Virus record (IMG/VR): IMGVR_UViG_3300033233_001973
Location: 1-37,674 of that record
Length of the DNA: 37,674 nt
Source: a virus
Strand: one strand, 5' to 3'
Part shown: positions 3,901 to 37,674 of the stretch, piece after piece
How positions within the stretch are numbered: position 1 is the stretch's first letter
Layout: each line of letters opens with the position of its first letter
Notes under the pieces: model-generated
The model's database searches: none
What the model was told of the DNA's origin: nothing
Seen by the model: the letters and a program-made list of their open reading frames with translations, nothing else
Made by a program: the position numbers and the translations under genes

Positions 3901-5551
3901 CATTGCCCGCAAGAGCCTGCTCGACATTCAGCGCGCGCTTGCCGTTCGGAAAGGTCACATACCCGCGACATGCGGTATAGAACCAGGCCAGCGTGTCGGT
4001 TTCGCTCTTCGCTTCCGAGAGCAACAGCCCCACCCGGTAATTGTTTGCCGTACACGCGGCGGCGGCGGCATAATAATAATCATATGCTATATCGGCGGAG
4101 GTAAGTGGCATCAGCGAGCGCCTTGTTATCAAATCCAGCTCACACCAGGCCGCATTGTCCTGCCACACGGGGGCGCCGTCCGCGTTACCATTAGATAAAT
4201 ATTTCTGCACCTTCAGCCCGCGAATAACGGCCACAACAGAGTCCGACAAATCCCCGCCAAAAAGATTTGCAAACCAGGAGGTCGGCGCCGGATAAAGGAA
4301 TTTGTAGCGCATGGTAATAGCTACTGTCTCCCCCTTGATGACGATGAAGAGGCAATCCTTGAAGCGAACGGAGGCTACATCCAGGTCCCACGCGTTGTTC
4401 ATTTCCGATTTGTTGACCACGTCGCCGGATGCGCCGAGCCGTATTTGAACTTTATTTGTTTGCGTGAGGTCTACCTTTTGATCCCTCACCCACAGCTCTT
4501 CCACCGCGTCGTTTTCCCCAGCGGCGAAAACATAAACGCGCGTCTGTCTTACGCTGGCGGACATATTCGTCTCGCCGTATTTTACCAATGTTCCGGCAAC
4601 GGCCCGGCGACCATAAACATATGGCAGCACATTGCCGGAAATACCCGGCTCGCGATATTTGCGCGTACTGTCCGGACTAATCCGTCCGTGCGGGTACAGC
4701 GCCATCGGATTTATTCCGCTCTGAATGATTGACAGGCCCGCATCAAAGCCGCCGAAATTATTGGTATTGCCGAGGTTCTTGCAGGAGCCTTTGGAGCGGT
4801 CGCAGTCCAGCGTAAACGTATCACCCGCAACCACCGCATTCGTGAGCGCGTCGAACGTAATTTGACCCGTGCCTGTGTTGTGGTTTTTAATCCAGCGCTC
4901 TTTACCTCCGCTCGTGCCGGTGAGCAGCTTCAGCGTCGCGCCGTACATCGAGGATATACCGACGAGCGCCGACGAGGTAAGCGAGGTGGTAGCGCCCGCC
5001 GAGGCCGTGCCGGAAGGACGACTGCCGCCGTTATACGCGCAGTTCGTATCGCAGAATTCGAGCCAGGGGCAGGAGCGTATCAGCGTGCGCCACGGGATAT
5101 CCGTCCGCGTTCTGTCCTGCGTCGAAATGCCCTGGAAAGAGAAGTTGATCGTTTCCGGGGTAAGCTCATCCATCTCGCCCCGAAACTGCAAAAGGCTGTC
5201 ATCATACGTCGGCCAGGCGTCTATAACAGCGCCGGTGGAAGTGTTGAGGAATATTTTCGAGATGGTGAATTTGCGCCCGTCAAAAGGAGAAGCCGCGTGA
5301 TAGCCCGCCACTTCGCGGTTGATGTCCACGATATTGACCGCTACGGAATCTATTTTCCCGGTGGATGAAGTTTTTATTTTCCCGTGCTTCCAGCGTCGGG
5401 CTGTGAGAGTATTCCCCTGAAAGGACAGATTCGCGTGATGGTCCACATAGCGGAGAGTGGACCCATCCAGAAAAATCGTAAGCACGGACCGGGGCATGGC
5501 AAGCCCGGCGGCGATCTGTGTTTGAAGTGACGGGGAAAGCGCGCGGCTCAT
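923..5551 (-). CDS. Giant tail tip/hub protein (gpL-like N-terminus fused to gpJ-like tail tip)
   Basis: About 1542 aa from the ATG at 5551, which overlaps the stop of the upstream gene as ATGA; an upstream in-frame start at 5608 would add 19 residues but lies inside that gene. Residues ~1-270 look like the lambda gpL/DUF2163 family, with five cysteines (about 161, 167, 171, 250, 257) in the pattern that binds an iron-sulfur cluster in gpL, followed by an NFGGF-type end. The next ~600 residues resemble tail-tip attachment proteins (gpJ/phage-tail_3). Further on are fibronectin-III-like segments (about residues 1110-1220) and a beta-rich C-terminus likely to contact the receptor. There is no separate gpK or gpI gene. 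It is the last structural gene of the late operon. Confidence 0.85.
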   Translation of the reverse strand: MSRALSPSLQTQIAAGLAMPRSVLTIFLDGSTLRYVDHHANLSFQGNTLTARRWKHGKIKTSSTGKIDSVAVNIVDINREVAGYHAASPFDGRKFTISKIFLNTSTGAVIDAWPTYDDSLLQFRGEMDELTPETINFSFQGISTQDRTRTDIPWRTLIRSCPWLEFCDTNCAYNGGSRPSGTASAGATTSLTSSALVGISSMYGATLKLLTGTSGGKERWIKNHNTGTGQITFDALTNAVVAGDTFTLDCDRSKGSCKNLGNTNNFGGFDAGLSIIQSGINPMALYPHGRISPDSTRKYREPGISGNVLPYVYGRRAVAGTLVKYGETNMSASVRQTRVYVFAAGENDAVEELWVRDQKVDLTQTNKVQIRLGASGDVVNKSEMNNAWDLDVASVRFKDCLFIVIKGETVAITMRYKFLYPAPTSWFANLFGGDLSDSVVAVIRGLKVQKYLSNGNADGAPVWQDNAAWCELDLITRRSLMPLTSADIAYDYYYAAAAACTANNYRVGLLLSEAKSETDTLAWFYTACRGYVTFPNGKRALNVEQALAGNVAHSFDDYTNGKTKNNILPGTFKFPKTRLNDIPNLLVVKFTDEQVRDTVALTTTYIAATDTTVPYKDKNKTFISTGYPATAYINGEAFTYTGNNGTQFTGCSARAAAYPAGYPIYQGQQLYTQETATWRNEKAIKDTRRFIPKQIDGSAIPNHEQAYKIAAYLGKKAAAEAQRCEHGGRMDSLHLTPGDVVAVTHSDPGWVDSKFHVIETSESMDEEVDYILGRYDATVYDEAVNIPPPALASLLASPYAAPQHVTTLVLVEGGYYSSDGLYIPKITLTYSLPQSSLYWGGAVVELSINGGAYAFYDNDDSGGLSFTIKGDKGGFRVSDAVTVRVTSINQEGIPADVTTSPTQAITISGPAAFPAITGLGLESNPGGSVWNGLKFAVTWRPYSAIGGAGIEPAGQEQYGAGGWISDPGWAYDDLELWIGGVCAGTWKVGQSCRWEYIYGDGEDAYLDALLTAANGACEVRVRRWATGNKPSPEMKLALTHAAPSTPSGLTSVGFSRSVDFKWTANTESALSGYKVRTQVDSGTWSNWSTVLSTPSYLWTSANAVGGAIVVIEVKAVDVFNNESGTITTSNSTTVILPDELYTTLRTDFLVRDSIFRFGNNTDAGTTLSWTAGYVSRGGVEYTLSASSLESANNKYVIATLSGSAATLSLAGITSGIPTLTANQVIIATTSSTANSAGNYICYVRQANSMMIEGAIIRDATIMSVHIDSLRGFNIQGSGIMTVGSYFTQAPSAGAGTVYVKDTIDFPSSGTACVIDTTNDRVEFAYTGKTASTLTGCSDVLAHNIGATVFPKQQAMIIDKTVNEMRFWGDAGAGYEELISNGLKQDGSDWIIGDYGSFSENNSKVAGRFRSYTANAIIAMSYSGKAVYATSHIGSAFGGVSYTSFAAQFASTGTSLEDSGALKLAMTLRGQRDILTTASWTLPKGCYMIQCSNATALTLQLRMGDNNWYGNVTGFSGFLCTDGYEVRLYNPSGGTITVYYEKY

Positions 5552-5913
5552 CGGCGGTCCTCGATAAATTCCATGGTCTGCATTTGATATAGCCCGGCCC
5601 GAAACCAATCGCGCTTCAGGCCCTGTTTGTGGAAACGGACCGTATACTGTACGGATGAATCACCTGATCCTCGGGATGGCCGAGTCCAGTAGAAGGCCAC
5701 TCCGAGATGGGCGGTATAAAACGTATAAACCGCATCGGCGTCGGATACGGACTGAAAATTTATAGGGCAGCGAAACAACAGGCGAGGATTGCCACCTTTG
5801 ACACGAATCTGTTCAGGCCCACAGGAATCCTCGCCCGCGGAAATCAGCATTTTCAATCCGACCTCTTCTTCTGAAATCGGCAGTTCCACTCTCCAAGTAA
5901 AAGAATCAGGCAT
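5548..5913 (-). CDS. Minor tail tip protein (gpM-like)
   Basis: 121 aa. It sits between the tape measure and the hub, where lambda-type phages encode gpM, the first tip protein added after the tape measure. Mixed alpha/beta sequence with conserved-looking aromatic segments; no membrane segment or signal. It overlaps the tape-measure gene by 8 nt and the hub gene by 4 nt (ATGA), which suggests coupled translation. Assignment rests mainly on position and size. Confidence 0.6.
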   Translation of the reverse strand: MPDSFTWRVELPISEEEVGLKMLISAGEDSCGPEQIRVKGGNPRLLFRCPINFQSVSDADAVYTFYTAHLGVAFYWTRPSRGSGDSSVQYTVRFHKQGLKRDWFRAGLYQMQTMEFIEDRR

Positions 5914-21709: not shown

Positions 21710-23728
21710 TTACACTACTCCCTTGCTGATGATCCTGCGGCCTCTCGTTTGAGGTTGCGCCACCGGCTCTTCTTGCGATTCAACCCCACTCTGTTTTCTG
21801 CCCGCCCATTGCCGCTTGAACGCCTCCACATACGGCTTCGGGTCTTCACCCGAACTCTCGAACGCGGCCAGGGCGCCGACGCACATATCAAGCGCCTCGT
21901 TCCGCGCGCCCGGTCGGGCCTCAACGTATACTCGGAGTTTCCCTTTCCACTCCGCCCGCTCCGAGGTCAGCAGTTGTTTAAAATATTCTTCATCATAATT
22001 CTGGTTGAAGTGCATGTACCCCGGCGCGGGTTCATGCGGGCCTTGCTCCAGCAACTCCGCCTCGGGTACTCTGCCGGCCTGCCGCAGGTCCCGGGCCTGC
22101 GTGACATAGTCCGGCGGGTCTTTCAGCGCGTTGCCGAGTACGATCTCTTTTCCCTCGTTCGGGCCGATGGGGTAATACCGGCACCGGTTCGCCTTGTCAT
22201 CTTTCGGCCTCTTCGTTACAAGCGGCGCGCGGGAAGTTGTATCGCTCATACCTTTGGCCGGCCAGACCTGCGGGCGCTTGCCCCGGCAGAATTTCAGGAC
22301 CGTACCCTGAATATACCCCATGTCCACGAACATGCGGGCGATGAAGCATTTCTCTCCGCTCTCATGTTCCCAGGTTTTGAAGCGGTATTTCTCAAGCTCT
22401 GTCCAGACCGGTCCCAGGTGTCCACCGTAAAGTTCCGACGTATCGCCCCAGAATATTTTATGCTCCAGGCCCCAGCGCTCTCCCATCGGACCGAAAGCCC
22501 AGACGTCAACCTCCAGCCGGTCCTTCTGCACGTCGGCGAATGCGAAGAGGCGATGATAGGCACCGAGCGGTACCTTCGTATAATGCTCACAACGCTTGAG
22601 ATACGGCGACGTTACTTCCTTGGAATCTATTTCCATGTCCGGGGTCCAGGGCTGGCCCATCCATTCGTTCACGAAAACTTTTTTAGTGTGGCGCTGCCGG
22701 GACATCCTGATCCATTCCTCGGCGTACTTCTTGAGTGTGACCCAGGGCGAAAGAAACGGCAGATAATAACCGAATGACGCCTTGCCCTCGAACGGTCTCG
22801 CGGCGATCCATTTTCCACGCGGTCTCATGCCCTGCAAGTGCATCTGACGGATTTTTTTTATCGTACATTTTGGATTTTCGCACTCTAACCATACGTCCTT
22901 GACGTTCTCCGACGTGCTGCTTTCCCGCGTGTATTTCACCTGCTCGTGGTGAAAATTCTGCATATGTCCACAGAACGGGCATGGGAGATATGGCTTTCTC
23001 TGGTCGCCCGCAAGATACTTGCCGTATATACGGCTGGTTACTCCGGCGTCGGGATCGTGTTCCAGCGGGGTTGAGAGATTGATTATTTTCGCGCGGGTCA
23101 AAAAAGTTGACGTGCGCTTGTCCGCGAGGCTGTCCGGGTCCCCGGCCTTTAGCGTTTTCCATTTGTCCAATTCATCCTTAAAAACGATCCTGACCGGGCG
23201 GGAGGACAGGTCTCCATGGCTCCCGGAGTTTCCGGTGTTGAGCGCTCCGCCGGCGAACTTTTTATAATCAAGTTTGTTGTTCGTGCTGTTGCCGTGGTCA
23301 ACATCTATTTTCGCGCGAAGACACGGCGTCGCCATGACCATGGACATCAGCCGTTCAGTTGACCAGGCTTGCTCCTTTGCCTCATTCTCAAAAATGACGA
23401 GCATGGCGGAAGGGTCCTGGTCTATGAAATACCCCACAGGATTGTTGACAAGACTTTCGGTCCCGCCGATCTGCGCGGGCTTCATAAACGAGGTCTCCTG
23501 CACAAACGGGTCTGAGATGCAATCCATGATCTCGCGCAGCAACGGATTCCGGGACGTGCGCCACGCCCCGCCCTCGGAATTGTTGTCGAAGGAAAGAATA
23601 CGATTTTCATCCGACCACTGCGAAATGGTAAGGTCCGGCGGGGGCGCCTTGATAGCCCAAATGCGGGCGACAAGCTCCTCGGCCTGAGCAAGGAGCGGAG
23701 AATCGAGTATGTTAAGAGTGCAATTCAT
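21710..23728 (-). CDS. Terminase large subunit, lambda gpA family
   Basis: 672 aa. Deviant Walker A-like segment FMKPAQIGGTES (81-92) and a Walker B-type stretch IVFKDELD (181-188) lie in the N-terminal ATPase. A Cys-rich segment (CPFCG ... CENPKC) follows at about 255-300. The C-terminal half, starting near AFADVQKDRLEVDVWAFG, carries the nuclease acidic residues. Start overlaps the TerS stop (ATGA). The gpA family usually cuts at cos sites, so cohesive ends are likely. It is the packaging motor. Confidence 0.9.
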   Translation of the reverse strand: MNCTLNILDSPLLAQAEELVARIWAIKAPPPDLTISQWSDENRILSFDNNSEGGAWRTSRNPLLREIMDCISDPFVQETSFMKPAQIGGTESLVNNPVGYFIDQDPSAMLVIFENEAKEQAWSTERLMSMVMATPCLRAKIDVDHGNSTNNKLDYKKFAGGALNTGNSGSHGDLSSRPVRIVFKDELDKWKTLKAGDPDSLADKRTSTFLTRAKIINLSTPLEHDPDAGVTSRIYGKYLAGDQRKPYLPCPFCGHMQNFHHEQVKYTRESSTSENVKDVWLECENPKCTIKKIRQMHLQGMRPRGKWIAARPFEGKASFGYYLPFLSPWVTLKKYAEEWIRMSRQRHTKKVFVNEWMGQPWTPDMEIDSKEVTSPYLKRCEHYTKVPLGAYHRLFAFADVQKDRLEVDVWAFGPMGERWGLEHKIFWGDTSELYGGHLGPVWTELEKYRFKTWEHESGEKCFIARMFVDMGYIQGTVLKFCRGKRPQVWPAKGMSDTTSRAPLVTKRPKDDKANRCRYYPIGPNEGKEIVLGNALKDPPDYVTQARDLRQAGRVPEAELLEQGPHEPAPGYMHFNQNYDEEYFKQLLTSERAEWKGKLRVYVEARPGARNEALDMCVGALAAFESSGEDPKPYVEAFKRQWAGRKQSGVESQEEPVAQPQTRGRRIISKGVV

Positions 23729-24513
23729 TTATGCTTTTTTCGTTTCTCTTTTTTCTTCGCCGGAATTTTTTGTTCCGTCCCTATCGGCGGGGCGTTCTTG
23801 ATTATTTCCATTATTTTCTCGCGCGAGGAGAAGGACTTTAAATGCTCCCGCACCCAGTCCATCGCCGCTATCTCAACCTCTGCGCCGAATATCGCACCCA
23901 TTAGTTTAGGCATGTTGAGCAGACCATTGCGCTCCTGCGCCTGGACCGCCGACTCCGCCTGTAGCAGCCGTTCGGTGTTGGTAAGCTTCCCTTCCTCTTC
24001 CGCGTTTTTACGCTGATCTTTCCTGAGCCGCTCCTGCTCGCGCTGAAGCTTTACATCCCGCAGTAGATTACCCTGGACGGACTCGGCGTCTTTCCATGCT
24101 TTTCTCAGCGAACCGCACGAGGCAAGAACGTCATACTGACCGCGACCACTCCGAACAAGAGCGCCCTTCTCCGCATCAAGCTGGACTGTGCGCGGGTCCA
24201 CGCCTAAAACTTCGGCCATAACTTCAACAGGAACAAGATATGAAATAGCATCGTCCGAGCGACTTCCTTTACCCTGAAGAAGGGGGGGCCTGTCAATTGC
24301 CGCCATATCTGACTTATCGGACAAGAGCGCGTCTATTTGATCCAGAGAACACGGCACAAAAAAGAAAACACCAAGAGCATTAACGCGATCCATGAAAGCC
24401 TTCGCATGCCCTTCGTATTTTTTCGGAGTGACAATCGTAAAGGTAAATTCACCCGTGGACTTTTTAAATCCAGGGGCCTCAATTTCCGCCGGCAGTTTGT
24501 CCCATTCAACCAT
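23725..24513 (-). CDS. Terminase small subunit, Nu1-like
   Basis: 262 aa. Residues ~90-145 (YLVPVEVMAEVLGVDPRTVQL ... LRKAWKDA) match the Nu1-type winged-helix DNA recognition domain; a long charged coiled coil (150-195) and a Lys-rich end follow. The first ~85 residues are an extra domain not usual for Nu1 and unrecognised by me. Partner TerL starts at its stop codon. Role: binding of the packaging site and regulation of TerL. Confidence 0.75.
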   Translation of the reverse strand: MVEWDKLPAEIEAPGFKKSTGEFTFTIVTPKKYEGHAKAFMDRVNALGVFFFVPCSLDQIDALLSDKSDMAAIDRPPLLQGKGSRSDDAISYLVPVEVMAEVLGVDPRTVQLDAEKGALVRSGRGQYDVLASCGSLRKAWKDAESVQGNLLRDVKLQREQERLRKDQRKNAEEEGKLTNTERLLQAESAVQAQERNGLLNMPKLMGAIFGAEVEIAAMDWVREHLKSFSSREKIMEIIKNAPPIGTEQKIPAKKKEKRKKHK

Positions 24514-24519
24514 GATTTT

Positions 24520-24711
24520 TCATAACAACCTCGGCTCCCTCTCGTCTTTTTCCCGCTGCTCCGCGCGCTTCTCCTGCGCTTTGCTCATCCCGGTCTTTGC
24601 GTGTTCCAGGCACGGCCCTTGACGCTTCCCGCTTACGCTGTGCTGTGTGGTTTTGCCGCAGACGTTACACCATGCGGACATTGATATCATGTTTTTGGTT
24701 TCGTGAAACAT
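24520..24711 (-). CDS. Small zinc-knuckle protein
   Basis: 63 aa from ATG at 24711 (GAGG 5 nt upstream; an upstream in-frame start at 24726 would add five residues). A CNVCG pair and a later PCLEHAKTGM segment could bind one zinc ion. The C-terminus is a charged helix. Lies just upstream of TerS; some phages encode small zinc or HNH proteins there, but no HNH motif is visible. Confidence 0.6.
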   Translation of the reverse strand: MFHETKNMISMSAWCNVCGKTTQHSVSGKRQGPCLEHAKTGMSKAQEKRAEQREKDEREPRLL

Positions 24712-24749
24712 GAAAACCTCGTTCAAAGTTCATAGTTCATTGTTCAGAG

Positions 24750-25190
24750 TTAAAACGGGATATCCCCTTCATCCACCAGCTGCGCATCCGGGAACGCATC
24801 CGAGACTCCGGAGGGAACGGCGCCCGTGTCGTCGGGGTTGAACACACGGTCCTGCTTCTGTCCGCGATTAAGAAACAACACGGACCACGCAATGACGCCA
24901 ACCTTGCTGCGCTTCTGCCCCGTCGCCTTGTCTTCCCACCGCTGCTGAGCAAGCTTCCCATCAACAAGTATCGGGTCGCCCTTTTTGCGGTACTTCGCCA
25001 CGTTCTCGGCCAGCTTGTCGTATATCGCCACATCGATATAATCCACATGCTCTTTTTTCTGGGCTCCCTTCCCCCGCACGGAATTGAGCGCGAGAGAAAT
25101 TGAAACGTGCGCCATCCCGCTCGATAAATATTTAACCTCCGGGTCGCTCACGATGTTCCCTACCAAAATAACTTTATTAAACGCTTGCAT
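24750..25190 (-). CDS. ssb: Single-stranded DNA-binding protein
   Basis: 146 aa. The OB fold begins NKVILVGNIVSDPEVKYL and continues through KKEHVDYIDVAIYDKLAENV, WEDKATGQKRSKVGVIA; an acidic C-terminal tip ends DIPF, the contact for replication and repair partners. Good Shine-Dalgarno (GGGAGG). It is separated from the replication operon and leads the late block, directly after a 53-aa gene (TAA then ATG). Confidence 0.92.
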   Translation of the reverse strand: MQAFNKVILVGNIVSDPEVKYLSSGMAHVSISLALNSVRGKGAQKKEHVDYIDVAIYDKLAENVAKYRKKGDPILVDGKLAQQRWEDKATGQKRSKVGVIAWSVLFLNRGQKQDRVFNPDDTGAVPSGVSDAFPDAQLVDEGDIPF

Positions 25191-26450: not shown

Positions 26451-26848
26451 ACCAGTCTGAATTTGAGCGCAACATGCGCGGCGCGAAACAGATTTCCACG
26501 TTATCCGACGAACCGAACGATCAGGATTTTTGGTCAGGCTATCAGCGCGGAATGCGACGGCACTATCACGGCGAGAAATTCGGGACTGAGGCAGAGCACG
26601 CCCTCTGGATGGCCGCAGCCGATCAAACACGCGACGAGCAGCGCCGTCACCGTGGCCTCGGCTATCGTGCAGGTTTTGATGGCATGTCAATATCCGATGC
26701 AATTAAACACCTCGCCAAATTTACAGCTGCATCCTCTGCGGGGTCTGTCAGTTCCCGCGCTAAAACTCTCGCTGCCCGTGAGAATGCTAAACAACCGCGT
26801 CCAAATGCTCAGGGACAGAAAAAACCACGCTTGCCAAAATCCGAGTAG
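26447..26848 (+). CDS. Hypothetical protein ending at the first attC site
   Basis: 133 aa from ATG at 26447, coupled to the upstream gene by ATGA. The N-terminal half is acidic/aromatic (FWSGYQRGMRRHY, then EHALWMAAADQT, then GYRAGFDG), the C-terminus basic and Pro-rich. Its TAG is one base before the attC R'' box at 26850, the canonical spacing between a cassette gene and its attC. It is thus the only gene here in normal orientation relative to an attC. Confidence 0.7.
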   Translation: MNQSEFERNMRGAKQISTLSDEPNDQDFWSGYQRGMRRHYHGEKFGTEAEHALWMAAADQTRDEQRRHRGLGYRAGFDGMSISDAIKHLAKFTAASSAGSVSSRAKTLAARENAKQPRPNAQGQKKPRLPKSE

Positions 26849-26849
26849 G

Positions 26850-26909
26850 GCCTAACAATCGGGTCCACGACGACCTCCCTACGGTCGGCGTGTGACCCGG
26901 TCGTTAGCT
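26850..26909 (+). repeat. attC 1 (left end of array)
   Basis: R'' GCCTAAC (26850-26856), R' GTTAGCT (26903-26909). Arms GGGTC-c-AC...CGACC and GGTCG...GT-GACCC pair with an extrahelical C on the left. Follows the plus-strand 133-aa gene. Confidence 0.85.
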
Positions 26910-27056
26910 CTTAGAATCCTTCTCTTTTCCCTTCCGTTTCTTTTCGCGGGCCTCTACCATTTTCCGAGCCTGTTCCGGTGTTAAAATACGGCGGGATTTG
27001 CTCCCGCCTTTTGCGCCTATTTTTGCGAGGTATTTTGAAAGGTCGCTTTTTTTCAT
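26904..27056 (-). CDS. Cassette A gene 2: small basic KGG-type protein
   Basis: 50 aa, starts MKKSDLSKYLAKIGAKGGS, very Lys/Arg-rich with a KGGSKSR turn and an LTPEQARKMVEARE helix. Resembles short KGG-motif proteins; function unknown. Start overlaps the stop of the preceding cassette gene (ATGA). Its TAA is formed by the first three bases (TTA on plus) of the cassette, at the crossover point. A near copy is at 29590-29742. Confidence 0.75.
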   Translation of the reverse strand: MKKSDLSKYLAKIGAKGGSKSRRILTPEQARKMVEAREKKRKGKEKDSKS

Positions 27057-27322
27057 ACTTTCCCTCTCAGTTTGCCAGCGGCCGCCTCAGCAACAGCGTG
27101 TTTTTCCTCGGGCGTGAGTTTGTAGAATTTTCCTAATGCATCTGCATATGCCGCCAGTTTGCTCCTGTTCTCGATGATGATTCTAACGTCCATGATTCCC
27201 TGATCGTGCATTGTGGGTCCGGCATACCGCAGCAAATTGTCAATCTGTTCCCCAGTCAAAACCGTTTTTTCCAAAATCTCTGCTGCCCATTTGTTCTGTT
27301 TTGCCGATCCGTTGAATTTCAT
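27053..27322 (-). CDS. Cassette A gene 1: conserved small helical protein
   Basis: 89 aa beginning MKFNGSAKQNKWAAEILEK, helical and soluble; no family recognised. GGAGG 8 nt upstream. It has its own promoter (27368-27396) and is the first gene of a two-gene unit with the KGG-type gene. The same unit recurs in cassette E (29590-30026), where the N-terminal half is closely similar and the C-terminus diverges. Pairing of two small genes with a private promoter in an antisense cassette recalls toxin-antitoxin cassettes, but neither protein is a known toxin. Confidence 0.78.
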   Translation of the reverse strand: MKFNGSAKQNKWAAEILEKTVLTGEQIDNLLRYAGPTMHDQGIMDVRIIIENRSKLAAYADALGKFYKLTPEEKHAVAEAAAGKLRGKV

Positions 27323-27333
27323 TTTATTGCCCT

Positions 27334-27383
27334 CCGCTTATGATTTGTACTCCCTGTATCTGAGACAATACTATCATAAGCGG
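27334..27383. promoter_or_regulatory. 11-bp inverted repeat across promoter and leader of cassette A
   Basis: CCGCTTATGAT (27334-27344) and ATCATAAGCGG (27373-27383), 28 bp apart. One arm overlaps the -10/spacer, the other abuts the ribosome-binding site; a candidate operator pair. Repeated identically in cassette E. Confidence 0.6.
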
Positions 27384-27396
27384 CTTACGTTGTCAA
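27368..27396 (-). promoter_or_regulatory. Cassette-borne sigma-70 promoter (cassette A)
   Basis: On the minus strand TTGACA (27396-27391), 17-bp spacer, TAGTAT (27373-27368), reading into the 89-aa gene. An identical copy is at 30072-30100. Confidence 0.8.
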
Positions 27397-27431
27397 GGGG
27401 TAAATTAAAAATAATTTCAGGTCCAAAACCG

Positions 27432-27486
27432 AGCTAACAAAACGCTCGACTTTGACGCTTCGCGCAAGTCAGCTAAAGCGTTAGGT
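27432..27486 (+). repeat. attC 2
   Basis: R'' AGCTAAC, L'' GCT-c-GACTT, L' AAGTC-AGC, R' GTTAGGT. The C between GCT and GACTT is unpaired, as expected for an extrahelical base. Identical to attC 6 up to GCGTTA. Confidence 0.9.
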
Positions 27487-28220
27487 TACTCGTTCCATAC
27501 TTCTTCGCTGTTAGTTTCCGACGGCAAATAAGACCCGTCTTTTTTGTCGGGCCGCACGTACTTGCAAAGGAAATCAACCACGCGCACCCGTTCCGATGAA
27601 TTGTTATTGATCTGCTTATTTCGCTCTACACGCCACATTGCGCCCTCAACCGGATCAAGCGCACCATGAAAACCGTACTGCCCGATCATCGCCATCACAG
27701 CCTCGATGCTCAAAGGTTCTCCCCGGTGAAGAAGGTGCGGGACCGTGAACACTCCCGCCTCTACCCTTTTCAAAAAATCATCATAGGGCATCCGGTTGTT
27801 GCCGTGCATCAGATCGAAAACCACAAACGGTTCGTGCTGCAACTTGTACCGTGTACCGTGCGCCTGGACAAGCCACTCCCCGCAAAGCCTTTCTCCGTCT
27901 CTCAATACGCGCAAAAACCGCGCTTCGTTCGCGGCAACCCAATCAAAAAACTTATGATGCTGAACATACTGTGAAGTGTTGGCAACGTACCCAGCCCGAG
28001 TCAGCGCAACGATCACGCCGTCTATTCTGGCAACTCCAACATTAGAGCCGTCCAGCTTCTCCTGTACGATTACCTCGTCATGCTTATCGCGCAACTTTTG
28101 GCAGGCGATCCGCTCTTGCCCGTCGTGGCATTTGTGATCTCCCGGCCCGAGACGGCTTCCCGGCAGATGTGCGATTGAACCGTATGATTTTCCGTTCAAT
28201 GGCTTCTTTTTCTCTTCCAC
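27486..28220 (-). CDS. Cassette B: RNA ligase family nucleotidyltransferase
   Basis: 244 aa from GTG at 28220, which has GGAGG 6 nt upstream; reading from an ATG at 28280 would translate the attC. Motif I VQEKLDGSNVGVARI places the AMP-binding Lys near residue 54. Motif III-like CGEWLVQAHG, motif IIIa-like FVVFDLMHGN, motif IV EGAMWRVER and motif V FLCKYVRPD follow in order. This is the covalent nucleotidyltransferase fold of ATP-dependent RNA ligases, which seal broken RNA such as tRNA cut by host nucleases. It lacks an extra C-terminal domain, so polynucleotide substrate is uncertain. Sole gene of its cassette. Confidence 0.82.
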   Translation of the reverse strand: MEEKKKPLNGKSYGSIAHLPGSRLGPGDHKCHDGQERIACQKLRDKHDEVIVQEKLDGSNVGVARIDGVIVALTRAGYVANTSQYVQHHKFFDWVAANEARFLRVLRDGERLCGEWLVQAHGTRYKLQHEPFVVFDLMHGNNRMPYDDFLKRVEAGVFTVPHLLHRGEPLSIEAVMAMIGQYGFHGALDPVEGAMWRVERNKQINNNSSERVRVVDFLCKYVRPDKKDGSYLPSETNSEEVWNE

Positions 28221-28237
28221 AATAAACCTCCATCGTA

Positions 28238-28295
28238 AACTAACTAAACGCTCTTGGGGCCGCTGGGGGACGCGCCCCACAGCTCAGCGTTATAC
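28238..28295 (+). repeat. attC 3
   Basis: R'' AACTAAC, L'' GCT-c-TTGGGGC, L' GCCCCAC-AGC, R' GTTATAC. Its core differs by one base from attC 5. Confidence 0.88.
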
Positions 28296-28937
28296 GAAAA
28301 CCATCTTTCCTTGCCGCTTGTGTTCTTCCAGTCGCTTCTTTGCGTCCGCGTAATATTCGGTGTCAATCTCGTATCCGGTGAGGTCATATCCCAATATGTC
28401 ACAGGCAATCGCCAAACTAAAACTGCCGCCGTGCGTGTCAAGGATTCTATCTCCCGGTTTCGCGTAGTTTGTTAAAATCCACTCGTACAGCTTCACAGGT
28501 TTCTGTGTCGGGTGGATGCGCTGTTCCTTGTGCATCATGTCTTCCTGCCAGAACCCTTCCCAAAGAAAATCAAATCGCCTTACCGCTGTAGGAAAAGAAG
28601 TCCAGGCTAATTCGCAATCTGCCGTATTTCCCGCCGTCTTTTTATTCCAAACCAACCAACATGAAGAATCAAACGGTATCCGACTTATGAAATGGTTTGC
28701 GCCCCAGATAATTTGATTCTTTGACACTCGGCGGAGTTCAATAAAATACTCTGGCCGCTCCGGCTTTCTGTCCCATTCTTTCGCTGTGTGCGCTGTTGTT
28801 TCTGTTCTTCCGCGTGACGGTCTTTTCGTCTTATCCTCTCCGATGCCATACGGAGGATCGACAATAGCCAGATCAAACGCCTTGTCCGGCATCTCTCTCA
28901 TGGCTTCCATGCAGTCTATGTTGTGCAGTTCGATCAA
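28290..28937 (-). CDS. Cassette C: DNA N6-adenine/N4-cytosine methyltransferase
   Basis: 215 aa from the TTG at 28937 (GAGG 8 nt upstream); an ATG-initiated reading from 29039 would run through the attC and the neighbouring cassette. Motif IV DPPYGIG sits near residue 25-31, HPTQKP near 147, and a motif I-like segment ILDTHGGSFSLAIAC near 165-179, the motif order of class-beta methylases (PF01555). It transfers a methyl group from AdoMet to DNA. No partner restriction enzyme is present, so protection from host restriction is a likely use. The TAA stop is the crossover TTA. Confidence 0.85.
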   Translation of the reverse strand: MIELHNIDCMEAMREMPDKAFDLAIVDPPYGIGEDKTKRPSRGRTETTAHTAKEWDRKPERPEYFIELRRVSKNQIIWGANHFISRIPFDSSCWLVWNKKTAGNTADCELAWTSFPTAVRRFDFLWEGFWQEDMMHKEQRIHPTQKPVKLYEWILTNYAKPGDRILDTHGGSFSLAIACDILGYDLTGYEIDTEYYADAKKRLEEHKRQGKMVFV

Positions 28938-28949
28938 AGTCAAAACCTC

Positions 28950-29006
28950 GTACAACCAGGATGCTCCAGCGCGACGGCTACGCCGCGCCTGAGCACCGCG
29001 TTGGAC
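28950..29006 (+). repeat. attC 4
   Basis: R'' GTACAAC, L'' GCTC-c-AG-CGCG, L' CGCG-CCT-GAGC, R' GTTGGAC. Arms pair with an extra C on the left. Confidence 0.8.
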
Positions 29007-29008
29007 AC

Positions 29009-29524
29009 TTACGACTCTATCCGCTTCCGGCCTTCCCACGGCGCAGCGTTCATACCTTGCATCAGTTGCATAATCCGCATTGCCCGCGCTCTGGCATCCG
29101 GCGTTGGTTCTTTTGCGGGATCGTTTTTCCCATCCGGCGCGAAGAGATGATTTGCATTCACAAATGCCGCCATCATATCAGCCAGTTGTTTTCTCCATGC
29201 TCTTCTGAAATGATTAAAACAGTCCTCAACGTCAATAGCTTGGGCCTTCGTCAACTCGTAAAACCGCAGCCTGCCTCGCTTCCAGTTCGCTATCTGGCTC
29301 GTCTGGCAAACGTGAAGCACTACGTGTGCCAGGAGAGTTGCGTCGAGTTTATTTTGTACGGAGAACCGATACCCTTGTTTGTCCTGTGAAATTATTTGAT
29401 CAAGCGTGATCCCGTGCTTTTTGCAGAGAGCGTCAAGCATTCTCTGTGCCGTCTCTCGCTCGCCGCCTATGCCGCACTTCGCCAGGGCTTCTATTTTTTT
29501 CAGCTTATCAATTAATAGTTCCAT
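29009..29524 (-). CDS. Cassette D: DUF2786-like protein
   Basis: 171 aa. The N-terminal ~45 residues (LIDKLKKIEALAKCG ... AQRMLDALCKKHGITLDQI) match the DUF2786 pattern of small phage and bacterial proteins; the rest is helical with an aromatic/basic centre. Molecular role unknown. Weak Shine-Dalgarno. Sole gene of its cassette. Confidence 0.72.
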   Translation of the reverse strand: MELLIDKLKKIEALAKCGIGGERETAQRMLDALCKKHGITLDQIISQDKQGYRFSVQNKLDATLLAHVVLHVCQTSQIANWKRGRLRFYELTKAQAIDVEDCFNHFRRAWRKQLADMMAAFVNANHLFAPDGKNDPAKEPTPDARARAMRIMQLMQGMNAAPWEGRKRIES

Positions 29525-29537
29525 AGTTCAAAACCGT

Positions 29538-29595
29538 GTCCAACAAAACGCTCGTGGGGCCGCTGGGGGACGCGCCCCACAGCTCCGTGTTAGCT
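29538..29595 (+). repeat. attC 5
   Basis: R'' GTCCAAC, L'' GCT-c-GTGGGGC, L' GCCCCAC-AGC, R' GTTAGCT. Perfect arm pairing apart from the extrahelical C. Confidence 0.9.
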
Positions 29596-29742
29596 CTTAG
29601 AATCTTTATCTTTTCCCTTCCGCTTCTTTTCTCGGGCCGCTACCATTGCCCGTGCCTGCTCCGGTGTTAAAATACGGCGGGATTTACTCCCGCCTTTTGA
29701 TCCTATTTTTGCGAGGTACTTTGAGAGGTCGCTTTTTTTCAT
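29590..29742 (-). CDS. Cassette E gene 2: small basic KGG-type protein, second copy
   Basis: 50 aa, near-identical to the cassette A protein with a few substitutions (IGSKGGS, ARAMVAARE, KGKDKDSKS). Start overlaps the upstream gene by ATGA; stop TAA is again the crossover TTA. The two copies keep this reading frame intact, which argues for selection. Confidence 0.75.
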   Translation of the reverse strand: MKKSDLSKYLAKIGSKGGSKSRRILTPEQARAMVAAREKKRKGKDKDSKS

Positions 29743-30026
29743 TCTCCGAGATCCCGCTTCGCTACGGTTCTCACCATACCAGCGGCCTCCTCAGCAACGG
29801 CGTGTTTTTCCTCGGGCGTGAGTTTGTAGAATTTCCCTAACGCATCTGCGTAGGCCGCCAGTTTGTCCCTGTTTTCAATGACAATGCGTGCTACCATTAT
29901 TCCCTGATCGTGCATTTCCGGTCCGTTATATCTGAGAAGATTGTCAATTTGTATTTCGGTCAAATTCGCTTTTTCTAAAATCTCTGCTGCCCATTTGTTC
30001 TGTTTTGCCGATCCGTTGAATTTCAT
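29739..30026 (-). CDS. Cassette E gene 1: conserved small helical protein, second copy
   Basis: 95 aa. Starts like the cassette A protein through MKFNGSAKQNKWAAEILEK, diverges at scattered sites and has a longer C-terminus (ends VAKRDLGE). Same promoter, leader and ribosome-binding site as cassette A over about 200 identical bases. Function unknown. Confidence 0.78.
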   Translation of the reverse strand: MKFNGSAKQNKWAAEILEKANLTEIQIDNLLRYNGPEMHDQGIMVARIVIENRDKLAAYADALGKFYKLTPEEKHAVAEEAAGMVRTVAKRDLGE

Positions 30027-30071
30027 TTTATTGCCCTCCGCTTATGATTTGTACTCCCTGTATCTGAGACA

Positions 30072-30100
30072 ATACTATCATAAGCGGCTTACGTTGTCAA
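30072..30100 (-). promoter_or_regulatory. Cassette-borne sigma-70 promoter (cassette E)
   Basis: TTGACA (30100-30095), 17 bp, TAGTAT (30077-30072), identical to the cassette A promoter including the flanking 11-bp inverted repeat. Confidence 0.8.
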
Positions 30101-30135
30101 GGGGTAAATTAAAAATAATTTCAGGTCCAAAACCG

Positions 30136-30190
30136 AGCTAACAAAACGCTCGACTTTGACGCTTCGCGCAAGTCAGCTAAAGCGTTATCC
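30136..30190 (+). repeat. attC 6
   Basis: Same sequence as attC 2 from the R'' box through GCGTTA, then diverges (TCC instead of GGT), marking the crossover. Confidence 0.9.
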
Positions 30191-30394
30191 GTTCAAATAC
30201 GCCAGTTTCATGTCCTGGTACACGCGCCGAAATCCCGTGCTCGTGACGGTCCCGCGATGGTCCATGATCTTGTCGCCTTTGCCGTCGAACTTTCCGGTCC
30301 GGCGTTCGTACCATTTCACTTTGTATTGTGTCGGGGCCGTTTCCGCTGACTCTCTCGCTGCACGTCTGATTCTTTTGGCTACTGTTCCTCGCAT
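30185..30394 (-). CDS. Cassette F: small basic protein
   Basis: 69 aa from ATG at 30394 with AAGGAG Shine-Dalgarno. Begins MRGTVAKRIRRAARES; basic N-terminus, aromatic centre. Similar short basic proteins are common in phage early regions; no function known. TAA stop is the crossover TTA. Confidence 0.7.
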   Translation of the reverse strand: MRGTVAKRIRRAARESAETAPTQYKVKWYERRTGKFDGKGDKIMDHRGTVTSTGFRRVYQDMKLAYLNG

Positions 30395-30442
30395 GATAGT
30401 TCTCCTTTTCAATGGAATATATTTTGGAATAATTAACGTCAC

Positions 30443-30500
30443 GGACAACAAGGTGGTCCAGATCGTCGCGCAAACCACGCGACTGACCACCGCGTTGGAA
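30443..30500 (+). repeat. attC 7
   Basis: R'' GGACAAC, L'' GTGGTC-c-AG...TCGCG, L' CGCGA-CT-GACCAC, R' GTTGGAA. Extrahelical C present. Confidence 0.8.
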
Positions 30501-30502
30501 TC

Positions 30503-30676
30503 TTAAATTCTCAGCGCCTCTATCTCTTTTCGTAGACGTTCAATCTCGTCCTTTGCCTGTACCAGCGTATTTCTGTGGCGCGGATCACACGCGACCATTG
30601 ATGCCATGTGTAATAGGAGAACGATGTCGAAAGGCTCTTCCATTTTTTTATCTGGTATTCCGCCTGCCATACTCAT
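30503..30676 (-). CDS. Cassette G: short helical protein
   Basis: 57 aa from ATG at 30676 (GGAGG 4 nt upstream; a second ATG two codons later has 10-nt spacing). C-terminus is a Lys/Glu/Arg coiled coil (AKDEIERLRKEIEAL). Function unknown. Confidence 0.6.
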   Translation of the reverse strand: MSMAGGIPDKKMEEPFDIVLLLHMASMVACDPRHRNTLVQAKDEIERLRKEIEALRI

Positions 30677-30688
30677 ACGACCTCCGAA

Positions 30689-30745
30689 ATTTAACCAGTC
30701 ACCCACCCGACCAAAAGCGTCGGGCGGGTGACTTCCGCGTTAGCC
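30689..30745 (+). repeat. attC 8
   Basis: R'' ATTTAAC (perfect RYYYAAC), arms GTCACCC-CCCGAC / GTCGGG-GGGTGAC, R' GTTAGCC. The extrahelical base is not clear here. Confidence 0.75.
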
Positions 30746-30862
30746 ACAATACGGACACTCCGGTAACGTTTCAGTTCCTCCGGCGTTCATTGCCCGTGCT
30801 CGATCAATAAAATCTACTCCTACTCCTGCTCGTGCTGCAATCGGTTCATGTTTATATGCCAT
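30740..30862 (-). CDS. Cassette H: 40-aa protein with terminal CPYCG
   Basis: Start ATG at 30862 with GGAGG 6 nt upstream. Ends ETLPECPYCG, a single zinc-knuckle-like pair. Its TAA is the crossover TTA. It almost fills its ~200-bp cassette, the smallest in the array. Confidence 0.6.
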   Translation of the reverse strand: MAYKHEPIAARAGVGVDFIDRARAMNAGGTETLPECPYCG

Positions 30863-30878
30863 AGTCAACCTCCGAAAA

Positions 30879-30947
30879 TCATAACCAGTCATTCTGGCAA
30901 ACCAATATACAAATGTGCCATCAAAACCTCACGACTGGTTGTTATGT
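30879..30947 (+). repeat. attC 9, degenerate (right end of array)
   Basis: AACCAGTC (30883-30890) pairs with GACTGGTT (30933-30940); R' candidate GTTATGT (30941-30947). The interior is less paired than in the other sites. It overlaps the end of the 152-aa phage gene. Confidence 0.55.
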
Positions 30948-31387
30948 TTTATCGGGTTATCTTCCCCGTTCAATCGCCCCACTTGTTCAAAAAAATCTTT
31001 CTGTGAAATGTCCCTTACTACACACAATCTGCGCACGAGCCCCGAATACGCGCGGAATTTGACCAGGTCCACCGGCTCAGGCAGTCCTGGCGCCCGGAAG
31101 TTTTCGTTCGGGCCACCAGAGTGCAGCCCATCGAAAAATTTCCAGACCTCTCGCATATGCCCCGTGTGCTCACCCACTCTCAACAGCTTCCACGGCGGCA
31201 CCTTCGATAAATCCTCCAGCCAAATTTCCAACTCCCCGGCGCTGAGCGTCAACAGGCTGCGCGCCTGAAGGCGTTTCAGCGCCCTCTGCACGAGCGCGAA
31301 GTCTGGCAGTGGCCTGCTCGATGTTCCGGTCTCTTTGCGCGTCTCGTTCTGCGCCGAAATCCCGCGTTCCGTTTTTTTGTTTTCCAT
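30929..31387 (-). CDS. Hypothetical early protein next to the replication gene
   Basis: 152 aa, starts 217 nt inside the replication gene in another frame. AGGAG 6 nt before ATG supports this start, and no alternative start exists before the overlap ends. Central segment (LSAGELEIWLEDLSKVPPWKLLRVGEH) is helical. Its position after the initiator is where helicase loaders often lie, but no P-loop is visible. Its stop lies within attC 9. Function unknown. Confidence 0.65.
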   Translation of the reverse strand: MENKKTERGISAQNETRKETGTSSRPLPDFALVQRALKRLQARSLLTLSAGELEIWLEDLSKVPPWKLLRVGEHTGHMREVWKFFDGLHSGGPNENFRAPGLPEPVDLVKFRAYSGLVRRLCVVRDISQKDFFEQVGRLNGEDNPIKHNNQS

Positions 31388-32183
31388 CGGCTTCTCCTAA
31401 AGGTTTGTCTTCCGGTTGTAACCAATCAAGCCACACCCGGTTTAAAAAAGTCATAACGTTGCAAATACCAATACCCCGCAACACTCGCTCACTCGCCGCA
31501 TAATTTTTTACAGCGGCAATCCACTGGTTCCACTTCGCCGGGTTCCGCGCCCAGTATTCCCGGCACGCCTCAAGGTCTAAGTGTTTCCCGTTGACCTTCG
31601 GCATATCCGCCAGAAACAAAACCCACGCATGTTCCGCCTGCGTGTTTAGCTCTACGAACTTGGGCTCGTCCGGTTTTCCCTCCGGTCGGTCGAATTTGTC
31701 CGTTTCAAAAACATCCCCTTCCCCCGGTCCCCCTACCCCTAAAATCTTATTCATGTTCTTATTCTCGTTCTCGTTCTTGTTCTTGTTCTTGTTCTTAGCC
31801 CCTTGCAAGGGGCTTATTGGCGTGTCGTAAGCCCCTTCTTTTTGAAGCAACGAGATAACAGAGGCGTGCACTCTGTTGTCTGGATTAAGCCCCTCAACCG
31901 GTACTTTGTACATAGCTTCGATGAATGGTTTTATGAACCATTTTGCGCCGTTTTCTAGAACCAGGACACGGCCAAGGTCGGCATTGAAAAGGGTCAGGGC
32001 GACGTCTGGATCTACGGGCATATCCTTCCCGAGATATACCTGGGCTATCTCAAAATCCACATTCCAGAGCGCGGCGTGATCGCATTCGTGGTACAGGAAA
32101 TCCCACAGCTGCCGATAAGGGCCTGGCAGAGATCGGAAGAACGGTATTTTATATTTATCCGTATTTGTAAATCTTGTTGACAT
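31170..32183 (-). CDS. Phage replication initiator/replisome organiser (putative)
   Basis: 337 aa. The N-terminal ~120 residues resemble the winged-helix domain of phage replisome organisers (FFRSLPGPYRQLWDFLYHECDHAALW). A (KN/EN)n linker (about 129-144) is encoded by tandem hexamers. A second domain (180-260, with EACREYWARNPAKWNQWI) follows, then a disordered Arg/Ala tail that overlaps the next gene. Likely binds the phage origin and recruits host helicase. No clear lambda O or DnaD match is claimed beyond pattern. Confidence 0.65.
   Translation of the reverse strand: MSTRFTNTDKYKIPFFRSLPGPYRQLWDFLYHECDHAALWNVDFEIAQVYLGKDMPVDPDVALTLFNADLGRVLVLENGAKWFIKPFIEAMYKVPVEGLNPDNRVHASVISLLQKEGAYDTPISPLQGAKNKNKNKNENENKNMNKILGVGGPGEGDVFETDKFDRPEGKPDEPKFVELNTQAEHAWVLFLADMPKVNGKHLDLEACREYWARNPAKWNQWIAAVKNYAASERVLRGIGICNVMTFLNRVWLDWLQPEDKPLGEADGKQKNGTRDFGAERDAQRDRNIEQATARLRARAEGAETPSGAQPVDAQRRGVGNLAGGFIEGAAVEAVESG
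31750..31797. repeat. Eight tandem hexamers TTCNNR inside the replication gene
   Basis: Units TTCATG, TTCTTA, TTCTCG (x2), TTCTTG (x3), TTCTTA encode a Lys/Asn/Glu linker. Lambda-type origins lie inside the initiator gene, so this could be part of an origin; it could equally be a simple linker repeat. Confidence 0.7.
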
Positions 32184-36624: not shown

Positions 36625-37674
36625 ATGGCAGTACATGAAAAGAACGGCAGGTACCTCGTTGACTACTATCCAAACGGGGCAAAGGGCAAGCGGCGTAGAC
36701 TCATACTGCCTATTGGTACGACCGAGAAGGAGGCTAAACAAACAGAAAAAGAACTCCGCAGAAGTAAAGACTATCCAATCATATCGAAAGACGATGGCAT
36801 CTCTCGCCTGGCCAAACACTACTACGATTACATTGCTCTACATCTTGCCGAAAGCACCTGCAAGGACATAAAGAGTTGCTTTGACAATCACGTCATACCC
36901 TACTTTGGGAATATGCGCGTATCAGAATTATCGACGCCCCTCATCTCGACCTTCCAGAAGCTCAGGAAAATAAAACCGAACATAAGGAACAGAGAAGAAA
37001 AGTCAATCAATCGGACAATCAATAAAGAGCTGTCTTATTTCTCCGCTTTTCTTTCGTGGGTTGAATCAGAGATCGGCGCTATTCCCGCATCGCCGTTGAG
37101 ATTCAGGGCGCTCCCGTACAAACGCCCACTACCTGACATTATGCCCACCTCGGAGATACGGGCAATCATAAACGCAGCAGAAGAGCCTTACAAGGGGATC
37201 ATCATGGCCATTGCTCACCTTGGTCTTAGAATCACGTCGGCGCGGTTGCTAAAATGGTCGGACGTTGACTGGCCTTCGATGACCGTTGTTGCTCACGGGA
37301 AAGGCAATAAAGAAATAAGACTTCCTCTGTCTGATGAACTCGCCGAATGGTTGAAAAAGAAAAAGCAACAGAACATATATAATAGCCCGTGGCTTTTCCC
37401 GAGCGTGCTCAGGCCGAAACATCCGATTATCAACATCAGAAAACCGATACAACGAGCCGTCGAAAAAGCGAACGTGAAAAGAAAGGTCCATCCTCATCTA
37501 TTCCGACATAGCGCGGGCGCGCATCTTATCGAGTCAGGTGTGGATATACGAACCGTGCAGGAAATTTTAGGACACTCGGATATCAGAATGACCGAATGGT
37601 ATACCCAGGTTGCAATGAAAACGAAAAGGGAAGCGCTTACAAAAGCGGGGCATATAAAGCCCGGCAAAATGTAG
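36625..37674 (+). CDS. int: Phage tyrosine recombinase (integrase)
   Basis: 349 aa. N-terminal AP2-like arm-binding and SAM-like domain (about 1-150), catalytic domain with Arg202 (HLGLRIT), Lys226 (GKGNKE), His291/Arg294 (HPHLFRH), His317 (LGHSDI) and Tyr326 (YTQ). It lacks the extra patch typical of integron IntI, so it serves prophage integration and excision rather than cassette movement. Its TAG is the last codon of the window. Weak Shine-Dalgarno. Confidence 0.9.
   Translation: MAVHEKNGRYLVDYYPNGAKGKRRRLILPIGTTEKEAKQTEKELRRSKDYPIISKDDGISRLAKHYYDYIALHLAESTCKDIKSCFDNHVIPYFGNMRVSELSTPLISTFQKLRKIKPNIRNREEKSINRTINKELSYFSAFLSWVESEIGAIPASPLRFRALPYKRPLPDIMPTSEIRAIINAAEEPYKGIIMAIAHLGLRITSARLLKWSDVDWPSMTVVAHGKGNKEIRLPLSDELAEWLKKKKQQNIYNSPWLFPSVLRPKHPIINIRKPIQRAVEKANVKRKVHPHLFRHSAGAHLIESGVDIRTVQEILGHSDIRMTEWYTQVAMKTKREALTKAGHIKPGKM

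Follow-up and report, generated by a model that had tools for sequence, protein, structure and literature searches.

Bacteria trade antibiotic-resistance genes through the cassette slots of integrons, and in class 1 integrons the cassettes are read from the Pc promoter. Class 1 integrons share with the locus described here the geometry of the attC sites (5-nt spacer, 3-bp outer stem, one unpaired C/G, inner stem), but their cassettes are forward and their IntI belongs to a separate clade. The archaeal-integron review PMC9668308 describes ORF arrays as "generally in the same orientation", and reports reverse orientation only for spirochaete IntI genes. A complete integron is also found in Shewanella prophage M16-3 (MZ568829), where the IntI is 37% identical to the phage-type integrases discussed below and the genes are forward.

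In phages, 17 arrays of attC sites without an integron integrase (CALINs; TJE1, P12002L, PH101 and others) and phage integrons are reported in sections of Qi et al. 2023 (PMC9892861), with IntI1 recombining five of six phage attCs tested. The mere existence of an attC array in a phage is therefore not new, and the remark in the initial annotation that no well-described phage carries one has been superseded by these sections. As in the present locus, the published arrays lack IntI and include methyltransferase cargo. The cassettes of TJE1 and PH101 are described there as lying in one direction, typical of bacterial arrays, and the TJE1 genes were forward relative to attC in the present scan, whereas the genes of the locus studied here are reversed. 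Neither a phage integrase clade nor a terminase-adjacent location is described in those sections of the paper. Within the literature covered, most subscription journals lying outside it, no phage IntI clade, terminase-adjacent integron or all-reversed array was found.

The window analyzed in the current study is the whole 37,674-bp virus contig IMGVR_UViG_3300033233_001973, in which eight attC sites form an array at 26850-30745 (Table 1). The region is likely an integrase-less (CALIN-type) member of a phage-adapted integron group, whose closest cellular integrase relatives occur in MAGs of Geobacteraceae and other 'Deltaproteobacteria'.

The attC sites and their phage surroundings

Sites were searched with two home-made covariance models, the E-values of which are rough. 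Model R1 was trained on phage sites only, including those of the window, while R2 combined 15 attCs from viral contigs other than the window with four of class-1 integrons and two of phage TJE1, and contained no window site. The initial annotation had listed nine attC-like sites and proposed a covariance search of both strands. With R2, a search of both strands of the 37.7 kb gave exactly eight matches, all on the plus strand (E 2e-10 to 3e-5), and none besides. Eight of the nine are thereby confirmed, whereas the ninth (~30878-30947) was matched by neither R1 nor R2. In control searches, R1 recovered the attCs of TJE1 and the class-1 attCs carried by a P1 isolate, each in its true orientation, and over 50 kb of P1 sequence beyond those integrons it matched nothing. 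The strand assigned by both models was the established one in all the controls (class-1, TJE1 and Shewanella). Rfam at gathering threshold gave no match in the window, and the strict consensus RYYYAAC/GTTRRRY found none of the eight sites, because their outer box bases diverge.

A geometry scan derived from class-1 attCs gave 8 matches in 26800-31000, compared with a mean of 0.2 in dinucleotide shuffles. The stems covary, with 63 cells changed on both sides where shuffles gave 23 ± 3.6, and sliding the partner lowered the fraction of paired cells from 87% to less than 44%. The sites consist of AAC, five bases, three pairs, one unpaired C, an inner stem and then usually GC-GTT. They have R''/R' boxes with the core G^TT, in which AAC and GTT are invariant, paired L arms and an unpaired left-arm base, the last being the extrahelical C that had been claimed earlier. 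This class-1-like layout assigns the attCs to the plus strand.

It is highly improbable that the hairpins, lying between accessory genes, act as bidirectional terminators or belong to another kind of phage repeat, moved by homologous recombination and with no integron recombination involved. Phage accessory genes are often flanked by terminators, and the stem of attC H (30697-30733), when read on the minus strand, resembles an intrinsic terminator by its score. However, the invariant AAC/GTT boxes, the unpaired base and the covarying stem match attC, the sites are recognized by models trained elsewhere, related arrays adjoin IntI and attI, and the homology between cassette copies ends at G^TT.

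The initial annotation placed the array inside a phage genome, between a replication gene and phage genes and without an IntI. This position was borne out, with the packaging module on the other side from the putative replication gene. The small and large terminase genes overlap, and the portal gene likewise lies on the minus strand. For the putative replication gene (31170-32183), searches of Pfam and PHROG gave no family match. The sole TIGR02249 match of the window (36625-37674) was far under the cut-off and belongs to an ordinary phage integrase. Neither an IntI (TIGR02249 profile) nor an attI (match to the conserved motif YAACATnnnTTA, see below) was found in the window. With eight attC sites in 3.9 kb and no integron integrase nearby, the locus is thus a CALIN; of the parts of a complete integron (intI, attI and array), it holds the array only.

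Table 1. Coordinates of features in the window (R2 match coordinates carry two flanking bases on each side; cassettes are given on the plus strand).
Feature	Position	Strand	Details
Terminase large subunit, terminase small subunit, SSB	21710-25190	-	phrog_15, phrog_57, phrog_44; co-directional with cassette genes
Three phage genes	25488-26848	+	left neighbor of attC sites
attC A	26850-26909	+	core G^TT at 26903; R2 41.1 bits, E 4e-8, match 26848-26911
Cassette 1	26904-27480		two minus-strand genes, 26904-27056 (50 aa) and 27053-27322 (89 aa); duplicated as cassette 5
Promoter-like sequence TTGACA-17-TAGTAT, cassette 1	27368-27396	-	consensus scan; conserved in L067
attC B	27432-27486	+	core 27480; R2 E 3e-9, match 27430-27488; near-identical site in L012/L067
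Cassette 2	27481-28289		RNA ligase gene, -, 27486 to ~28222; PF09414, E 2e-21
attC C	28238-28295	+	core 28289; R2 E 9e-8, match 28236-28297; same type in L014, L024
Cassette 3	28290-29000		DNA N6/N4 methyltransferase gene, -, 28290-28937; PF01555, E 1e-16
attC D	28950-29006	+	core 29000; R2 E 2e-7, match 28948-29008; same type in L034 beside IntI gene
Cassette 4	29001-29589		171-aa gene, -, 29009-29524; phrog_421, E 3e-10
attC E	29538-29595	+	core 29589; R2 E 2e-10, match 29536-29597
Cassette 5	29590-30184		two minus-strand genes, 29590-29742 (50 aa) and 29739-30026 (95 aa); second copy of cassette 1
Promoter-like sequence, same, cassette 5	30072-30100	-	consensus scan
attC F	30136-30190	+	core 30184; R2 E 5e-10, match 30134-30192; stem identical to attC B
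Cassette 6	30185-30494		101-aa gene, -, 30185-30490; minus ORF ends at core
attC G	30443-30500	+	core 30494; R2 E 5e-8, match 30441-30502
Cassette 7	30495-30739		67-aa gene, -, 30503-30706; minus ORF ends at core
attC H	30689-30745	+	core 30739; R2 E 3e-5, match 30687-30747; same type in L012, L034
50-aa gene, array right end	30740-30892	-	stop inside core H; no recognizable attC of its own
Putative phage replication gene	31170-32183	-	right of array; relatives in viral contigs L003, L004
Phage integrase	36625-37674		right end of window

Cassette movement, cargo and gene orientation

The cassettes measured 245-809 bp, in agreement with the earlier estimate of about 200-810 bp. One cassette is present twice, as cassettes 1 and 5, whose sequences are 87% identical and differ by substitutions mostly at third codon positions. 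Their homology runs from core to core only (26903-27483 versus 29589-30187), and their left attC stems differ. Contig L067 shares the attC and promoter-like end of this cassette, the similarity stopping at the core, and the homology of methyltransferase cassette 3 to contig L055 starts at core C (28289). Like mobile cassettes, the units by which the arrays differ are complete and delimited by G^TT. The earlier proposal of such exchangeable units is upheld by cassettes 1 and 5 and by the shared end in L067. A relative of the 89-aa protein of cassette 1 (82% identical) is encoded in viral contig L005 (6001-6261), where no attC was found nearby; this gene thus also exists outside a cassette.

DNA methyltransferases dominate the identifiable cargo, being found in the window, L055 (two), L041 (two), L067, L038, L045 and L022, while the function of the remaining cassettes is mostly unassigned. 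The methyltransferase was the only match of the cargo in a defense-system library, and no relative of the RNA-ligase cassette protein was found in viral contigs. The DNA methyltransferases and the RNA ligase probably counter host restriction or tRNA cleavage. The candidate promoter in cassettes 1 and 5 suggests that some cassettes may not depend on the phage operon.

The most distinctive feature of the array, absent from the initial annotation, is the reversal of the genes relative to attC. In canonical gene cassettes the gene has the same direction as its own attC, but in all seven cassettes of the window the genes lie on the minus strand and the attC sites on the plus strand. The coding strand is fixed by known genes (RNA ligase, PF09414; methyltransferase, PF01555; phrog_421). 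At 8/8 cores a minus ORF of at least 45 aa ends 12 nt or less from the core, compared with 26 of all 275 GTTR sites in the window (9%, the eight cores included; hypergeometric p 2e-9); at the eight cores the distance is never more than 9 nt. Often the stop codon is a TAA that forms the complement of G^TTA. When run on class-1, Shewanella and TJE1 arrays, the orientation script gave forward genes in every cassette with an ORF.

The longest ORF was also reversed in nearly all cassettes of five viral contigs (L067, L055, L022, L034 and L017), with the stop mostly exactly one base into the core. Three 'same'-strand calls, made by the script from the longest ORF, were overridden by hand, two via homology (window cassette 3 and L067 6316-6731) and one via reading of the ORF in the sequence (L022 3870-4347). 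In the IntI loci L037, L044, L046 and L048 neighboring ORFs run in both directions with no clean reversed layout, and these four were not counted as support.

Nothing would be reversed if the sites were minus-strand attCs, with ordinary forward cassettes. The R boxes are nearly symmetrical, a few sites fold well on the other strand too, and in bacterial cassettes the stop codon of the gene commonly falls at the R'' box of the cassette's attC. It is nevertheless very unlikely, since both covariance models, which find the known strand in the controls, call only the plus strand in the window, and the strand calls in L034 and L055 agree with the position of intI and attI. Moreover, the site common to cassettes 1 and 5 is the one on the right, while their left sites differ, as expected if each attC forms part of the unit to its left. 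With the sites on the plus strand and the cassettes reversed, the attC hairpins would end up inside phage mRNA.

Phage-type integrases in related contigs and MAGs

The relatives of the array are metagenomic contigs or MAGs throughout. In pattern scans the same attC types and the reversed layout recurred in other viral contigs; a plain attC pattern gave 23 matches in viral contigs, of which about five were attCs by eye and by model. The array DNA had no match among plasmid records and short matches only among phage records. Contig L022, with a terminase 62% identical to that of the window, carries an array with a methyltransferase between the small and large terminase genes, and the 90-kb viral contig L017 has three attC sites of the same family. 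The full set of intI, attI and cassette array is present in related contigs L034 and L036/L055.

L034 encodes a 333-aa integron integrase above the TIGR02249 cut-off, adjoining sites of the window D and H types. A scan with this IntI detected eleven more viral contigs and six MAG loci (54-65% identity), the MAGs being labelled Geobacter, Geobacteraceae or Deltaproteobacteria. The catalytic residues and the IntI-specific insertion were present in the aligned sequences. At about residue 290, the phage-type IntIs (P0001 and others) carry some five extra residues, placed between HTFRHSFATHWLE and the LGH motif, that are absent from IntI1, the Shewanella IntI and one Geobacterales chromosomal IntI.

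Phage structural genes were found on the IntI contigs. One of these belongs to a Mu-like phage and encodes a transposase, a terminase, a portal, a sheath and a tape measure protein, and in others intI lies just before a phrog_15 terminase, the terminase type of the window; in L047 it is followed by a primase, not a terminase. The sequence YAACATnnnTTA and a following inverted repeat are conserved ~60-90 bp upstream of most phage-type intI genes, and probably mark attI.

In an unrooted tree, 16 phage-type integrases were split by a long branch (100/100) from Geobacterales chromosomal, class-1, Shewanella and Vibrio integrases. GenBank phages contained no member of this clade, the best being 37% identical. 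In Virus Rctr41k (L103, KX853513), from a methane-oxidising enrichment, an IntI-like 'xerD' (4680-5678) is 36% identical to phage-type IntI and is accompanied by methyltransferase-like genes; the first 14 kb of this record gave no attC match with R2. The phage-type IntIs come from different phage types, so they may not descend vertically as one system.

An IntI above the cut-off was present in 57 of 141 genomes of the order to which the Geobacteraceae MAG belongs, mostly of the chromosomal type. These sedentary chromosomal integrons of Geobacterales resemble the phage type in having such an IntI and an ORF array, and occur in the same order as the nearest phage-type MAG loci. They differ in that their integrases fall on the opposite side of the 100/100 branch and their genes point away from intI. 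The ORF nearest intI points away in 7/8 Geobacterales chromosomal loci versus 3/17 phage-type loci (p 0.0017), and is co-directional with intI in 14/17 of the latter.

These comparisons bear on the explanation that the array is a fragment of a host chromosomal integron taken by a prophage, with no phage adaptation and an accidental reversal. The frequency of chromosomal integrons in Geobacterales, the good R2 score of one Geobacterales attC (L109) and the host integrons that Vibrio and Shewanella prophages do carry would be consistent with such an origin. It is, however, unlikely and already disfavored: the attC type AACAAAACGCTCG...CTnAGCGTTR was found in several viral contigs but in none of 84,980 species genomes, the reversed layout occurs in 5-6 viral contigs while chromosomal arrays have the opposite one, and the related phage integrases are not of host type. 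The chromosomal attC itself (L109:5456-5519; R2 E 1.4e-11, as high as phage sites) is possibly a meeting point of the host and phage cassette pools.

A proposed viral cassette pool

The sequence itself has attCs in one direction, duplication and movement bounded by G^TT, and reversed genes co-directional with the adjoining phage genes. In the mechanism proposed for the phage-adapted integron, IntI would recombine the folded bottom strand of attC, here the strand that would read like cassette mRNA, and cassettes would be captured, exchanged and lost. As the window lacks an IntI, the enzyme must act in trans, supplied either by a related phage that shares the cell or by the host. Supply by the host, as put forward in the initial annotation, is one option only; since related phages that carry these attC types have an IntI and an attI of their own, a co-resident phage is at least as likely a source. 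The 'backward'-facing cassettes would be retained because only these are transcribed by the leftward phage operon. Since the reversed genes are readable by that operon, selection on expression would account for the reversal more readily than altered recombination.

On balance, though with some reservation, the data favor a wider proposal, in which different phages of Geobacteraceae and their relatives share a dedicated integron, with its own integrase clade and attI among early/packaging genes and with operon-reading cassettes. This integron would form a viral pool of mainly counter-defense genes, apart from the host pool, which the phage of the window would use without encoding an integrase.

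So far, work on integrons has treated them as tools of bacteria and as vehicles for resistance genes, and the proposed system, if true, would be their viral counterpart. Phages would run their own integron with a distinct integrase, swapping genes such as methyltransferases, which probably protect the viral DNA against host restriction. Recombination of other phage attCs by IntI1, reported in the sections of Qi et al. 2023 (PMC9892861), suggests that the phage pool could exchange cassettes with bacterial integrons. The reversed genes would represent a recombination platform fitted to another transcription direction, and would predict directly which cassettes a phage can use.
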